Positions 8,545 to 15,635 of a stretch of 29,118 nt of DNA are shown piece by piece. The notes beneath the pieces are model-generated. The model was given only the letters and a program-made list of their open reading frames with translations. It was not told the DNA's origin and ran no database searches. Source of the stretch: a virus; IMG/VR virus record IMGVR_UViG_3300033148_003050, positions 1-29,118 of that record, one strand, 5' to 3'. A program made the position numbers and the translations under genes. Numbering within the stretch: position 1 is the first letter of the stretch; each line of letters opens with the position of its first letter.

Positions 8545-8886
8545 ATGCCACAACAAGACACACAATTTAAATCGGGGGCAGAATGGAAAGGGAATGCTAA
8601 AGGCAGGCCTAAAGGAAAGACCATTAAGGAGTTAGTAAGAGAATGGTTAGAAGACCACCCAGATGATATGAAAGCATTTGTAGAGCATTTTGTTAAGAAG
8701 AATAAAGAGTTAGCTTGGCAAATGTTAGAAGGCCGCCCTCAACAAGATATAACTTCGGCAGGAGAAAAGATTATTCCTGTCCCTATTTTAGATGTATCAA
8801 AGAACCCAAGCAACAACAAAGATACAGAAACTGACAAAGAGGGTGAGAATCGTTCAGGGGGGGACATCAGCCAGCAAAACAGTTAG
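8545..8886 (+). CDS. Terminase small subunit-like protein, 113 aa
   Basis: FKSGAEWKGNAKGRPKGKTI matches the opening of small terminase/DUF5681-type proteins ('F..G...N..GRPKG'), followed by helices (IKELVREWLEDHPDDMKAFV) and the Q-M-LEGRP segment typical of this family. The role is recognising phage DNA and loading the packaging motor. The reading frame continues 95 bases into the large terminase gene; the last ~30 residues (DTETDKEGENRSGGDISQQN) are low-complexity and probably tolerated because that DNA must encode the Walker A motif of the partner. Assignment rests on the N-terminal motif and gene order. Confidence 0.75.
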   Translation: MPQQDTQFKSGAEWKGNAKGRPKGKTIKELVREWLEDHPDDMKAFVEHFVKKNKELAWQMLEGRPQQDITSAGEKIIPVPILDVSKNPSNNKDTETDKEGENRSGGDISQQNS

Positions 8887-9973
8887 CATAATAATCTACT
8901 TGATAGCTCTGGCTCAAAGTGATGTAGTAAAGACCCTTACAAGTATAGTATCTGAATCATTCCCTCATTTGAGAAGAGGAGCAGAACGGGACTTTTTGAA
9001 TATAATGAAAGAGCATCACTATTTCAAAGACAAGCTGTGGGATAAGACAAACCATACATATACTTTTGAAACAGGTTCAGTAATAGAGTTCTTTTCTGTT
9101 GACCAGCCCGAAAAGGTAAGAGGAGCAAGGCGGGATAGGCTATTTATCAATGAAGCTAATAATGTTCCTTTCTATGCTTTTGAAGAGTTAGAGGTAAGAA
9201 CCAAAGATATTATCTTTATTGACTATAATCCGACCAATGAGTTTTGGGTATTCACAGAAGTAATGCCAAAGAGAGATGATGTAGAAACTATCATATTGAC
9301 ATACAAGGATAATGAGGCGTTAAGCAAAGAGATAGTTGATTCAATAGAACAGCGTAGGAATAGAAGGGATTGGTGGCAGGTTTATGGATTAGGACAGTTA
9401 GGAGTAATAGAGGGCAGGATTTACAAGGATTGGAAGATTATTGATGAGATACCCCACGAAGCAAAGTTAGAGAGATATGGATTGGACTTTGGCTATTCAA
9501 ATGATCCTACGGCTATAGTAGGAATTTATAAATACAATCAGGGCTTTATTTTAGATGAGATAGTATTTCAAAAGGGTTTGAGTAATAAACAGATTGTTGA
9601 TGCTTTACAAACCCAAACACAAGCATTGGTAATAGCTGATTCAGCAGAACCAAAGAGCATTGACGAAATTAAAAGTTATGGCATACCTATACTTCCAACT
9701 ATTAAAGGAAAAGACAGCGTTTGTCAGGGAATACAATATGTTCAAGACCAGAAGATAAGTATTACCAAGCGGAGTGTAAATATAATTAAGGAGTATAGGA
9801 ACTATTTATGGGAAATGGATAAAGACGGCAGAACCCTTAATGTTCCAGAACATCAATTCTCTCATTCAATGGACGCAATAAGATATGGAATGGCATATAA
9901 TATAAACTATGAGAAGCCATTAGACCAGTTTAAACATAATTTAAATGTTAGAGAGGAGAACTCAACAAAATGA
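8792..9973 (+). CDS. terL: Terminase large subunit, 393 aa
   Basis: This is the ATP-driven DNA packaging motor and nuclease. Walker A is GGTSASKT at residues 23-30, Walker B LFINE at 117-121 with catalytic Glu121, and the coupling motif IDYNPT is near 143-148. The C-terminal RNase H-like nuclease shows Asp232 in YGLDFGYSNDP, Asp283 in IADSAEP and Asp361 in HSMDAIRYG. Length is at the short end for the family but all motifs are present. The ATG at 8792 directly follows an in-frame TAG, so no longer form is possible; the Walker A region lies inside the 95-base overlap with the small subunit gene. Its stop overlaps the next ATG. Confidence 0.95.
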   Translation: MYQRTQATTKIQKLTKRVRIVQGGTSASKTVSIIIYLIALAQSDVVKTLTSIVSESFPHLRRGAERDFLNIMKEHHYFKDKLWDKTNHTYTFETGSVIEFFSVDQPEKVRGARRDRLFINEANNVPFYAFEELEVRTKDIIFIDYNPTNEFWVFTEVMPKRDDVETIILTYKDNEALSKEIVDSIEQRRNRRDWWQVYGLGQLGVIEGRIYKDWKIIDEIPHEAKLERYGLDFGYSNDPTAIVGIYKYNQGFILDEIVFQKGLSNKQIVDALQTQTQALVIADSAEPKSIDEIKSYGIPILPTIKGKDSVCQGIQYVQDQKISITKRSVNIIKEYRNYLWEMDKDGRTLNVPEHQFSHSMDAIRYGMAYNINYEKPLDQFKHNLNVREENSTK

Positions 9974-10966: not shown

Positions 10967-12784
10967 ATGAGTAAATATAATCAAACGATTGGCAACAATC
11001 CGATCGGGGAACTCGTCCGAAAGGCTGAGGCGGATTATACTATAGGGGAAACTACTGTTTCCAAATATGTATCAGAGAACTTCTATGAAGACCTTAATAA
11101 GATAGATGCTTATTTAAACTCAAAGCATATTTCAGGAGATAAGGATTCTCTTGATAGGGATAAGCCGTTTTTTAACATTGTCTTGGCAGCCAGAAATATC
11201 TGGTTCAGGGCAACTGACATTGATAGAAAGAATATACGGATTAAAGCTGGGAAATCAAAGGACTTCTTGGCTTCTTTTTTAGCGACAGTTCATTTACAGG
11301 ATTATATGAAAAGAGAAAACTTCGGGCAGTTTCTTAATGACTGGGGATTAACTCTGGCTTCATACAATTCAGCTGTAAGTAAGTTTGTAGAGAAAGGGGG
11401 CAGATTACATACCATAGTTATCCCCTGGCAAAGAATAATAGTTGATTCTATTGACTTTTACAATAATCCCAAAATAGAGATATTAGAATTAACAGAAAAC
11501 CAAATAAGAAAGAACAAAGCATACGACCAAGATATGGTGGATAAGCTGTGTGAAACTATTGCTGCTAGAGAAATTATTGATAAAACCAAAAAGGATAACA
11601 AAGCAGAATACATCAAGTTATATGAGGTTCACGGAGAGCTACCATTATCATATCTTACAGGAGAAGAAGATGACCAAGATGAGTTTGTCCAGCAAATGCA
11701 CGTTATATCATTCGTAGCAGGAAAGGATAAAGGAGATTTTGATGACTTCACTCTGGTTAGCGGTAGAGAAAAGCAAGACCCTTACTTGTTGACCTCTTTA
11801 ATAAGGAATACAGACGGCTCTATCTCTCTTACAGGTTCAGTTAAGAGTTTGTTTGAAGCTCAATGGATGGTAAATCATTCTGTAAAGGCAATAAAAGACC
11901 AACTGGATTTAGTGTCAAAAGTAATCTTTCAGACATCAGACGGAAACTTTGTAGGACAAAATGCTCTGACTAATATAGAAAACGGAGCAATAATGATACA
12001 TAAAGAGAATCAACCTTTAACCCAGATGGCAAACACTTCCCACGATATAACATCATTACAGAACTTCGGACGGCAATGGCAGTTATTAGCTCAAGAATTA
12101 ACTTCAACGCCAGATATTATGAAAGGACAGAATATGCCGTCAGGAACAGCATTCAGACAGGCAGCCATAATCCAGCAAGAATCTCATTCTAACTTTGAGA
12201 TAATGACCGAGAATAAAGGATTGGCGATTGAGGAAATGATGAGAAAATATATAATCCCTTTCCTTAAAAAGAAAATGGATACATCAGAAGAAGTATCAGC
12301 TACTTTAGAGGATTATGATATTACCAAGATTGATTCAATATATATCCCCAATGAGGCAGTCCGCAGGTTTAATAAAAAGTCAGTTGAAGCCGTTATAAAT
12401 AGAACGCAGCTTCCAAACCTTGAACAAGAAGCAATGGGAGTTGAACGGGAATTAGGAGTTTTGGGAAACGAAAGATTCTTTAAGCCATCAGAGATTTCAA
12501 CTAAAACTTGGAAAGATATATTCAAGGACTTTGAATGGATAGCAGATGTAGAGATTACAGATGAAACAATAGACAAAGAACCTGTCTTGACAACTTTGTC
12601 AAGTGTATTGCAAACAATAGCGGGTAATCCTATGATATTACAAGACCCAAATGCTAAAATGCTGTTTAATCATATTTTAGAAGAAACGGGTCGTATCTCT
12701 CCTGTTGAACTATCTATTGCTTCAAATCAAAGGACACCAATATCGCCAACGCAAGAAACAACACAACCAGTAGAAATAAAGTAG
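10967..12784 (+). CDS. Portal protein, 605 aa
   Basis: The portal is the twelve-subunit ring at one capsid corner through which DNA enters and leaves. Evidence is position (after terminase, before scaffold and coat), length typical of short-tailed phage portals, and sequence features: DRDKPFFNIVLAARNIWFRA in the wing region, alternating helix/strand in the middle, and the long helical part with ITSLQNFGRQWQLLAQELTS, followed by the 'TPDIMKGQNMPSGTAFRQAA' stretch seen in such portals. The C-terminus, TGRISPVELSIASNQ, is duplicated with different codons at the end of the following HNH gene. This suggests that the portal 3' end was replaced during a homing event. Confidence 0.85.
   Translation: MSKYNQTIGNNPIGELVRKAEADYTIGETTVSKYVSENFYEDLNKIDAYLNSKHISGDKDSLDRDKPFFNIVLAARNIWFRATDIDRKNIRIKAGKSKDFLASFLATVHLQDYMKRENFGQFLNDWGLTLASYNSAVSKFVEKGGRLHTIVIPWQRIIVDSIDFYNNPKIEILELTENQIRKNKAYDQDMVDKLCETIAAREIIDKTKKDNKAEYIKLYEVHGELPLSYLTGEEDDQDEFVQQMHVISFVAGKDKGDFDDFTLVSGREKQDPYLLTSLIRNTDGSISLTGSVKSLFEAQWMVNHSVKAIKDQLDLVSKVIFQTSDGNFVGQNALTNIENGAIMIHKENQPLTQMANTSHDITSLQNFGRQWQLLAQELTSTPDIMKGQNMPSGTAFRQAAIIQQESHSNFEIMTENKGLAIEEMMRKYIIPFLKKKMDTSEEVSATLEDYDITKIDSIYIPNEAVRRFNKKSVEAVINRTQLPNLEQEAMGVERELGVLGNERFFKPSEISTKTWKDIFKDFEWIADVEITDETIDKEPVLTTLSSVLQTIAGNPMILQDPNAKMLFNHILEETGRISPVELSIASNQRTPISPTQETTQPVEIK
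12586..12603. repeat. Inverted repeat CTTGACAA-CT-TTGTCAAG in the portal gene
   Basis: Eight-base arms separated by two bases, within the coding sequence and 180 bases before the HNH insertion point. Could be an operator or nuclease recognition site, or chance. Confidence 0.3.
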
Positions 12785-12788
12785 AATT

Positions 12789-13406
12789 ATGAATACACAA
12801 TTTAAGGAAGGACAAATACCTTGGAATAAAGGAATACCAATGAATAAAAAAACTAAATTGAAATTAAGTAATTTGTTAAAAGGTAGAAAATTATCCAAAG
12901 AACATAAAAGGAAAATAGGATTAAATGGATTTCATTATGGAATGCTTGGTAAAAAGATGTCAAAAGAAACAAAAGAAAAAATGAGTATAGTTCATAGAGG
13001 AGAAAAATCTCATTTATGGAAAGGAGGAATAACAAAGTTATATGCAAGGATTAGAGGTTCGTTTAAGTATCGTCAATGGGTATCAGATATTTTTACAAGA
13101 GATAATTTTACTTGTCAAAAATGTAGTCAAAGAGGCGGAAAATTACACGCACATCATATAGAACAATTTGCAGTAATAATGAAAAAAAATAATATAAAAA
13201 CATTTGAAGAAGCAATGAATTGTGAAGAGTTATGGAATATAAATAATGGAAGAACACTTTGCTTAAAATGTCATAAAAAAACAGATACATATTTAACAGG
13301 AACTATTAGTCCAGTAGAGTTATCAATAACATCACAGCAACCTGTTCCTCCTGCGGTGAGGCAGTCAACGGTCGGAGCAGAGCAAAAAATAGAACCAATA
13401 CAATAA
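12789..13406 (+). CDS. NUMOD3-HNH homing endonuclease with fused portal remnant, 205 aa
   Basis: The first ~80 residues hold NUMOD3-type DNA-binding repeats (LSNLLKGRKLSKEHKRKIGL, LGKKMSKETKEKMSIVHRGE) and the SHLWKGGI motif. The nuclease core follows: FTRDNFTCQKCSQRGG, KLHAHHIEQF (catalytic His-His) and NNGRTLCLKCHKKT. From residue ~168 the protein continues as TGTISPVELSITSQQ, matching the portal C-terminus; this tail is not part of any HNH family. Almost every codon in the shared stretch differs from the portal copy. The gene thus sits exactly at the portal's end and reads through into the old portal 3' end. It starts four bases after the portal stop. Confidence 0.88.
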   Translation: MNTQFKEGQIPWNKGIPMNKKTKLKLSNLLKGRKLSKEHKRKIGLNGFHYGMLGKKMSKETKEKMSIVHRGEKSHLWKGGITKLYARIRGSFKYRQWVSDIFTRDNFTCQKCSQRGGKLHAHHIEQFAVIMKKNNIKTFEEAMNCEELWNINNGRTLCLKCHKKTDTYLTGTISPVELSITSQQPVPPAVRQSTVGAEQKIEPIQ

Positions 13407-13408
13407 TT

Positions 13409-13510
13409 ATGCCTTTCAAGTCAAAAAAACAAAGAACTTGGATGAGAATAAATAAGCCAAAATTGTATAAAAAGTGGAAAAAGAAGTATGGCACAAGAAC
13501 AAAAAAATAA
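13409..13510 (+). CDS. Small basic phage protein of the MPFKSKKQ type, 33 aa
   Basis: MPFKSKKQRTWMRINKPKLY, then KKWKKKYGTRTKK. This pattern, 'MPFxSKxQRxY/W...KPxxxKxWxKKY', is a widespread very small basic protein in phage head-gene clusters. Its role is not established; binding to DNA or to the scaffold is possible. It overlaps the next gene by 23 bases in another frame and starts two bases after the HNH stop. Recognition of the pattern makes it a real gene despite its size. Confidence 0.7.
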   Translation: MPFKSKKQRTWMRINKPKLYKKWKKKYGTRTKK

Positions 13511-14063
13511 ACAACAGAGACAAATGCGTTATACTAATAATGAATTACAGATAATCAAGAATACTTTTGCAGAGAATGATGATTTATTAAAGCGAATAAG
13601 GAAAGTGATGTTGCAGATGCCCTTGAATACATTAGACCTCTCAATACTGGAATTGGGAAAGAAAAAAGAGGTATTAGATATATTAAGGAAAACATTTCTT
13701 CCTACTTTAGACCCAGATGCACCATTAAACCAAGTTGTAGATTTATGGATGACTATTCAAATTACAGATAAAGAGCCGTTTATAGCATTACCACATCTTG
13801 AAGCAAGAAAGAAACTAATTGAGTATTTAGAACAGCAACTTCGTGTATTAGAGGACAATGGAAAAGAAAAGATAAAGTTTTCTGAATTAGTAATTTTTAA
13901 TAAAGAAACATCTGATAGAGATATATATGTTAATATGATAGTTAGAAATACGATAGTAAATCATATAGAAATGCAACTTGCTATGTTAAAGATATTAGCG
14001 GGAATGAAAAGTGAAACATTAGAAGAAACCCAAGAAAGATTAAAAAAAGATTCGTCAAAATAA
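13488..14063 (+). CDS. Hypothetical head-cluster protein, 191 aa
   Basis: An all-helical, charged protein beginning MAQEQKNKQQRQMRYTNNEL with clear amphipathic helices (LDLSILELGKKKEVLDILRK, ARKKLIEYLEQQLRVLEDNG) and ending in MKSETLEETQERLKKDSSK. No family is recognised. Its place between portal and scaffold suggests a minor head or assembly protein. The gene overlaps the end of the small basic gene before it, so the two are probably coupled. Confidence 0.6.
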   Translation: MAQEQKNKQQRQMRYTNNELQIIKNTFAENDDLLKRIRKVMLQMPLNTLDLSILELGKKKEVLDILRKTFLPTLDPDAPLNQVVDLWMTIQITDKEPFIALPHLEARKKLIEYLEQQLRVLEDNGKEKIKFSELVIFNKETSDRDIYVNMIVRNTIVNHIEMQLAMLKILAGMKSETLEETQERLKKDSSK

Positions 14064-14768: not shown

Positions 14769-15635
14769 ATGGCTAACACAATAGGAACAACTACTTGGAG
14801 AAACAAATACCGTTCTAATGTTATTGCACAGGCATTGAGGAGAATGTTGATTGCCGAGAAAATCTGTCAAGTTGATAGAACAGACAACAAATACATCTAC
14901 AATCCTTATGGGTCAGCTCCAACTACATTGGTTCAACCATTAGTAGGAACTTACGCTATTTCAACTTATACAACGACTAATGATACCTTGACAGTTACTG
15001 ATGAGTTTATAGTAGCAGAACATATCTATGACTTTGAAGAGACATTGGCAAACTTTGACTTGTTTGCTTCAAGGACAAATGAAATGGCTGCTTCAGTTGC
15101 GACAGCGATTGATAAGTATGTGTTGAATAACCTTCTTGAATTAGGAACAGGCACATATTCAACTCCATCAGGCGGATTTACAACTGCAGCGAACCTGAAT
15201 GTTATTATGTCCAACCTTATTTCAAAGGTAGCAGGATATACTGATGTTTATAAAGGTTTATTCTTGGTTCTTGAAAACTCTGATATTACTGGTGTTATTC
15301 AAGCACAGGCGACCAACGGTTTCTCATTTGCGGATGCAGCTCTTAACAATGGATTTCTTAACTCCTATATGGGAGTAGACATCTATGTTACGAGAGATAG
15401 CACATTCGGTGCTTCTACTGGTGATACATCAGGATCAACAACTTGGTCTAATTCCGATCACAGAGTATTCGGAGTAAAAGGTGTGTCAACCTATGCTGCT
15501 CCAAGAGGGATAAAGTTTGAAGAGAAGATGGTGACTGGAAAGACAGGAAAAGAAGTTGTATGTTATGGCTATACAGGATTTAAGTTGTGGCATACGAAAC
15601 TTGCTTTGATAGTAGATATTACTTTAACAAGCTAG
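14769..15635 (+). CDS. Major capsid (coat) protein, 288 aa
   Basis: Coat proteins of the HK97 fold build the icosahedral head. The gene follows the scaffold gene and precedes head-tail genes. Sequence signs are the N-terminal 'TTWRNKYRSNVIAQALRRML', a beta-rich E-loop-like part (TTNDTLTVTDEFIVAEHIYD), the spine-helix segment with MAASVATAIDKYVLNNLLEL, and the C-terminal P-domain-type stretch VYKGLFLVLENSDITGVI through NSYMGVDIYVTRD. Length is ordinary. The order of surrounding genes suggests a P22 coat-like member, which is inference. The TAG stop is followed at once by tandem stem-loops (15638-15714). Confidence 0.8.
   Translation: MANTIGTTTWRNKYRSNVIAQALRRMLIAEKICQVDRTDNKYIYNPYGSAPTTLVQPLVGTYAISTYTTTNDTLTVTDEFIVAEHIYDFEETLANFDLFASRTNEMAASVATAIDKYVLNNLLELGTGTYSTPSGGFTTAANLNVIMSNLISKVAGYTDVYKGLFLVLENSDITGVIQAQATNGFSFADAALNNGFLNSYMGVDIYVTRDSTFGASTGDTSGSTTWSNSDHRVFGVKGVSTYAAPRGIKFEEKMVTGKTGKEVVCYGYTGFKLWHTKLALIVDITLTS

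Follow-up and report, generated by a model that had tools for sequence, protein, structure and literature searches.

An HNH endonuclease gene of an uncultured tailed phage ends in an apparent displaced C-terminus of the adjacent portal gene

Mobile endonuclease genes that bring along coding sequence for the gene they invade have been described in fungal mitochondria. According to the sections of PMC3630166 considered here, the C-termini of atp6, atp9, cox2 and nad3 in Glomus sp. have been replaced by foreign ones that are carried together with an endonuclease ORF. For atp6, the native end is still found downstream, where it matches that of a relative at 91%, and the two copies share 63.5%. The same sections name Allomyces macrogynus atp6 as the first such hybrid case and cite a thesis on mobile ORFs carrying coding sequence (PMC3630166). 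In T4-like phages, the Seg and Mob endonucleases are associated with intronless homing, and endonuclease genes are found at intron, intergenic and gene-splitting positions, the last exemplified by mobE in Aeh1 nrdA and mobA in T4 gene 60; many Seg and Mob genes lack a promoter of their own (sections of PMC2988022).

The DNA analyzed here is a virus record of 29,118 bases that represents part of the genome of an uncultured tailed phage; this whole stretch is referred to as the window. The relative loci compared with it carry L-numbers (L070, L103 and so on). The features discussed below are the following.

8792-9973: terminase, by PHROGs match
10967-12784, + strand: portal P0001, between the terminase and the major head protein
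10967..12691, + strand: apparently resident portal core, codons 1-575, to T574-G575; 51-71% amino acid identity to relatives
12692..12784, + strand: copy A, the 3' end of the portal gene, closed by a TAG stop of its own; its DNA resembles the L070 portal end no more than expected by chance
12789-13406, + strand: P0002, the whole NUMOD3/HNH ORF including copy B
12789..13295, + strand: the putative HNH homing-type endonuclease itself, with NUMOD3 and the HNH domain
13296..13406, + strand: copy B, forming the C-terminal part of the HNH ORF together with its stop codon; its DNA matches the L070 portal end
13404..13413, + strand: TAATTATGCC, stop and context also found 3' of the portal in uninvaded L098 and L108
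13409..13510, + strand: small ORF MPFKSKKQ..., downstream of the nuclease gene
14769-15635: major head protein, by PHROGs match

P0001 has no PHROG family match and no Pfam family above the cut-off. Its AlphaFold model (pLDDT 70) resembles solved portals in a Foldseek search, with SU10 at 4e-13 and cyanophage Pan3 and T7 also retrieved, and the gene lies between those for terminase and head protein. P0001 is thus identified as a portal by its position and modeled fold. In the model of P0001, the last helix but one (561-573) and the last (579-585) lie on either side of the junction, and the nuclease gene P0002 starts four bases past the portal stop codon.

The portal C-terminus (copy A) is ETGRISPVELSIASNQRTPISPTQETTQPVEIK, and the HNH protein ends, directly past its HNH domain, with LTGTISPVELSITSQQPVPPAVRQSTVGAEQKIEPIQ (copy B). 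A sequence-only reading of this DNA had described the two ends as TG-R-ISPVELSI-A-S and TG-T-ISPVELSI-T-S, and both ORFs and both tails are indeed as it described them, with TG-x-ISPVELSI-x-S as the common motif. It placed the arrangement at 12670-13406; the end is exact and the start slightly early, because the duplicated codons begin at 12686. It had also claimed that every codon differs between the copies. This holds for all ten residues that it listed, for which the A/B codons are ACG/ACA, GGT/GGA, ATC/ATT, TCT/AGT and CCT/CCA (T-G-I-S-P) and GTT/GTA, GAA/GAG, CTA/TTA, TCT/TCA and ATT/ATA (V-E-L-S-I), but among all identical residues the codons differ at 10 of 12, since a serine (TCA) and a later glutamine (CAA) share codons in A and B. 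Between the portal core and its relatives, 31-54% of codons for identical residues are shared (median 42%, n=89). Given this level of sharing, the probability of finding 0 of 10 shared is 0.0004-0.025, and that of finding at most 1 of 11 is 0.0025-0.10. The codon divergence between A and B therefore exceeds chance and is suggestive, but distant portals that diverged naturally could yield the same pattern, and codon divergence alone does not decide the matter.

Because the compared segments are short and the tails are rich in Q and P, we considered whether the likeness arose by chance or convergence. The window's HNH/portal pair has a C-terminal score of 62, the highest among 107 HNH/upstream-gene pairs, which argues that the resemblance is not due to chance; mismatched HNH/upstream pairs reached a score of 30 in 35 of 11,324 comparisons. 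Copy B also matches uninvaded portal ends at the DNA level, as described below, and we regard coincidence as having a negligible probability, the lowest of any explanation weighed here.

P0002 has the features of a homing-type nuclease. A NUMOD3 motif (PF07460, 8e-6) is above the cut-off, the HNH domain is matched by PHROG 8446 (7e-14), and the zinc ligands and catalytic H/N/H residues are conserved in the alignment (C109, C112, H123, N153, C158, C161 and H162). The Pfam HNH profile scores 18, under its cut-off of 21.4; comparison with the PDB by sequence gave no match, and a structure search retrieved weak HNH folds (best E 0.02). In the P0002 model the HNH domain has pLDDT values above 90, and residues 171-205 have block means of 46-69 and no secondary structure. 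The portal motif is present in 1 of 110 HNH ORFs, the one being P0002 itself, and nuclease relatives that share its CHKKTD ending stop shortly past this sequence. The motif count and the relatives' early stops rule out that the tail is a native HNH domain. The case that the sequence-only reading had named against itself, a tail conserved throughout this HNH family, is likewise contradicted by the motif count and by the predicted disorder of the tail.

The tail could instead be a functional module that mimics the portal C-terminus so that the nuclease docks on the packaging machinery. The motif residues are kept in B, and HNH proteins are reported to aid packaging in some phages, according to the sections of PMC12724721 considered here. 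However, the tail is predicted to be disordered, the NUMOD3 architecture is of the homing type, and at the other loci described below the identity of the tail tracks the insertion site (gene X in L103, another portal in L280 and a third gene in L007). We consider a docking function very improbable. Copy B could also be a true second exon, with A and the nuclease removed by an intron or by translational bypass to give two portal isoforms. B is in frame and retains the motif, yet copy A already completes the portal with a stop codon, and the sequence not taken up by the HNH ORF amounts to just ~100 nt, which would not accommodate a group I intron core. An Rfam search of the whole window at the gathering threshold found no intron, and a search of 12400-13700 at E<=5 gave no match, including none to a group I intron core. 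This arrangement is slightly less probable still than docking.

We then asked which copy is native to the portal. Portal family scans used the best 80 of 230 and the best 80 of 234 relatives, and identical portal ends were collapsed to leave 87-89 distinct ones. Among the relatives used, TG-x-[IV]SP-x-EL closes most members of the portal family, and in an alignment of 46 portals conservation reaches at least 90% at G575 and P579. A second motif copy downstream of the portal was found at 0 of 82 relative loci with a strict pattern that missed the own motif of a minority of portals. The closest relative among those used, L070 (71% amino acid identity in the portal), lacks the nuclease. At the DNA level, B aligns with the L070 portal 3' end with a score of 61, which none of 500 codon shuffles reached (9.8 ± 4.5), whereas A scores 10, a value reached by 177 of 500 shuffles (8.8 ± 4.7). 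Nucleotide identity between the two portal genes is mostly 65-80%, and roughly 70-80% for the majority of blocks, up to about codon 575 and then drops abruptly to 42%. When we reconstructed an empty site in silico by joining the core to B without A and the nuclease, it aligned continuously with L070 (score 125), compared to a score of 59 for the present arrangement of core, A and nuclease. Across 88 distinct portal ends, the best DNA matches of B are L070 (44), L103 (38) and L108 (35) with a median of 19; the best match of A is 27 with a median of 18. A counterpart of the small ORF directly follows the portal in L077, which indicates that the nuclease sits within an ancestral portal/small-ORF junction.

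Because B matches uninvaded ends and A does not, the empty site aligns, and the post-portal context follows B, it is well supported that B is the displaced resident portal end and A an imported one, with the junction located at the T-G codons. The sequence-only reading had predicted that portal genes of nuclease-free relatives would resemble the downstream remnant, and the L070 scores of 61 for B and 10 for A bear this out. None of the 88 distinct portal ends comes from a nuclease-free relative with an A-like DNA end, the finding that would have pointed the other way, and these 88 also hold no match for a donor of A. The history of the window is read from diverged sequences, since no uninvaded locus among those used is closer to the window than 71% amino acid identity.

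Similar arrangements were found at other loci. In L103, an HNH gene lies one gene beyond the portal, after a gene that we call gene X. Gene X ends in AAAGATTCCAACAAGTGA and the nuclease in AAAAATTCAAATAAATAATT. In three of three uninvaded relatives, L098 (93% portal identity), L108 and L112, gene X ends with TCAAATAAATA; in L103 this sequence is now the end of the nuclease. The last codons of gene X are TCC AAC AAG TGA in L103 versus TCA AAT AAA TAG in L098, so that 0 of 4 are shared, compared to 27 of the 35 upstream positions at which the two genes have the same residue (p about 0.006, hypergeometric); between uninvaded loci 3-4 of these 4 codons are shared. L103 is absent from the high scores of the pair test, and gene X is interrupted in the L103 contig. 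Together, these comparisons make L103 a well-supported second case, at a different gene. Two tandem copies of the displaced end (AAATTCAAATAAATAATT, GATTCAAATAAATAATT) follow the nuclease at positions 3880-3916 of L103 and may be a scar of repair. L280, from a second portal family, is a further case that is well supported by its sequences: the portal ends VDKLSQLANV and the nuclease IKLSQLADIG, and the uninvaded portals L290 and L291 end VDKLSQLAETA and TDKLSQLAAV.

These loci bear on the possibility that the end of the target gene was duplicated locally and that the upstream copy A diverged later, by drift or nuclease escape, without import. In L103 the two copies encode nearly the same five residues, with synonymous changes and a different stop codon, and in L280 the copies share most bases, as local duplication would predict. 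In the window, however, A is without detectable DNA likeness to relatives' ends although the adjoining core and B retain theirs, and A and B differ in length and sequence past the motif. Local duplication is therefore unlikely, but it is the most credible of the alternatives to import.

Two further loci are probable cases by sequence comparison. In L099, the C-terminus of the nuclease reads QAPALAP-TAATCGGTGGGG and has the stop context seen in uninvaded L095, and the L099 portal end is unlike that of its nearest kin; we grade this case as probable because its DNA match alone does not rise above the 99.9th percentile of background. In L007, where a third gene is concerned, a 1297-aa upstream ORF and the nuclease both end in KGIS (AAGGGAATTTCGTAG and AAAGGCATCAGTTAA, respectively), and a search for uninvaded relatives of the upstream gene found none. 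Four of the 107 HNH/upstream pairs have a C-terminal score of at least 28, versus 0.56 expected from mismatched pairs (three pairs with an HNH gene in the upstream position as well had been left out). These four are the window and L280, which are verified, L059, which is a candidate, and L042, which looks native; we rejected L042 (LRGWLE/IKGWLE) as a case because its ending was judged to be a native HNH C-terminus. L242, L008 and L005 gave weak candidate matches. L009 was also rejected: its tblastn match extends to residue 205, but the tail is unrelated and stops break the reading frame.

A pattern search of 89 distinct portal loci, 88 of them with at least 600 nt downstream, found an HNH gene directly after the portal only in L099 and L184. 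L184 is a counter-example, with a nuclease at the same site as in the window and no displaced tail. No clear displaced end was seen in the seven named-phage HNH neighborhoods inspected, out of 28 matching records. Displaced ends were found at the protein level, which favors in-frame cases; a search of all three frames, extending as far as 260 nt beyond the nuclease, gave no out-of-frame end scoring above 23, and the seven best were all in the HNH frame. These sequence comparisons show that the layout of nuclease plus displaced end recurs in other uncultured phages and at other genes.

Several other features of these loci were observed. The sequence (A/G)TCGGTGG(A/G) recurs at gene boundaries, for example near the portal stop in L002, L095, L097, L098 and L174. 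In the interval from -130 to +80 around the portal stop, TCGGTGG is present at 24 of 88 distinct loci, and additional peaks lie near -2200 and +1200; over 617 kb it occurs 92 times on the + strand and 41 times on the - strand, sometimes within an ORF and sometimes after one. In three relatives (L077 6042-6662, L096 6079-6594 and L174 6074-6601) an HNH gene immediately precedes the gene for the major head protein, and by gene order this site appears to be a second HNH hot spot in the same operon. At L001 773-3178, the large subunit of terminase (801 aa open frame) appears to carry an intein around Walker A, and at L009 2570-4486 two ORFs, one LAGLIDADG-like and one HNH, break up a capsid-like gene and seem to lie in introns. 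L284-L288 are the only portal relatives from genome collections, on contigs binned with Parcubacteria, DPANN, other archaea and a bacterium.

As in the fungal mobile ORFs, an endonuclease ORF in the window is accompanied by an apparently foreign C-terminal piece that completes the invaded gene, copy A, whose DNA is unlike relatives' ends; and as there, the native end, copy B, lies downstream and is nearer to uninvaded relatives in DNA than the inserted end (sections of PMC3630166). The fungal enzymes described there are LAGLIDADG or GIY-YIG proteins in mitochondria, whereas the window has an HNH protein with NUMOD3 at a phage structural gene, and in the window the native end is fused in frame to the nuclease, supplying its stop codon. 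The T4-like Seg and Mob genes also lie between phage genes and carry flanking DNA along; in contrast to the window, no displaced gene end fused to a nuclease is described in the sections of PMC2988022 considered, nor in those of PMC10448857 on nucleases at exchange boundaries. The packaging HNH proteins of Skunavirus (HrdP, GVE2-like) share the HNH fold and the position adjoining the portal gene with P0002, which differs in its NUMOD3 homing architecture and portal-derived tail (sections of PMC12724721). The HNH fold is also common to the HNH genes of group I introns, but no intron was found in the window. We found no phage case of such a layout in a search that mostly covered open-access papers. 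In its anatomy the layout corresponds to the mobile ORFs of fungal mitochondria; it occurs here in phages, where the HNH genes are free-standing and no intron was detected.

Based on these comparisons, we estimate a probability of roughly 0.8 that a free-standing HNH gene invaded the portal 3' end, brought copy A and displaced the resident end, B, into its own tail. The sequence-only reading had proposed that a nuclease gene and a divergent portal 3' end arrived together and left the old end fused to the nuclease, and the matches of B but not A to relatives' ends support this. We infer that the move was homing. The HNH gene would have entered at the conserved T-G-x-I-S-P codons together with a foreign, differently coded set of the last ~30 portal codons, which would complete the portal frame, and the resident last codons and stop would have been pushed downstream to become an unstructured nuclease tail and stop codon. 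In such a process the nuclease would cut the portal end of a co-infecting phage. Upstream, the break could be repaired from a phage that carries the nuclease and a divergent portal, through homology within the conserved core of the portal gene, and on the right-hand side the nuclease gene would be joined in frame to the resident end, gaining a stop codon. Across the target motif almost all codons of copy A are different, so the invaded allele is probably no longer cut by the nuclease, and the element would be stable in its host. The recoding of the last codons in the close background of L103 makes such resistance of A an attractive idea, though import and selection are not separated there.

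A nuclease ORF that ends in its neighbor's old C-terminus would provide a simple DNA signature of past homing into coding sequence, and the same signature would show which gene end is imported. It would tie the homing genes of phages to a mechanism already reported from the mitochondria of fungi, and it suggests that neither an intron nor an intein is needed for a selfish gene to enter an essential virion gene at its end. The predictions for the cut site and for the resistant allele are precise enough for testing. We tentatively suggest, as a generalization that is rather less likely to hold than the history of this locus, that phage HNH genes may have another way into essential genes besides introns and inteins. 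They would target conserved 3' ends, carry a recoded, nuclease-resistant ending and use the displaced ending as stop and tail. The recoded end would then serve as both repair and immunity, and the cassette could move between phages and genes.
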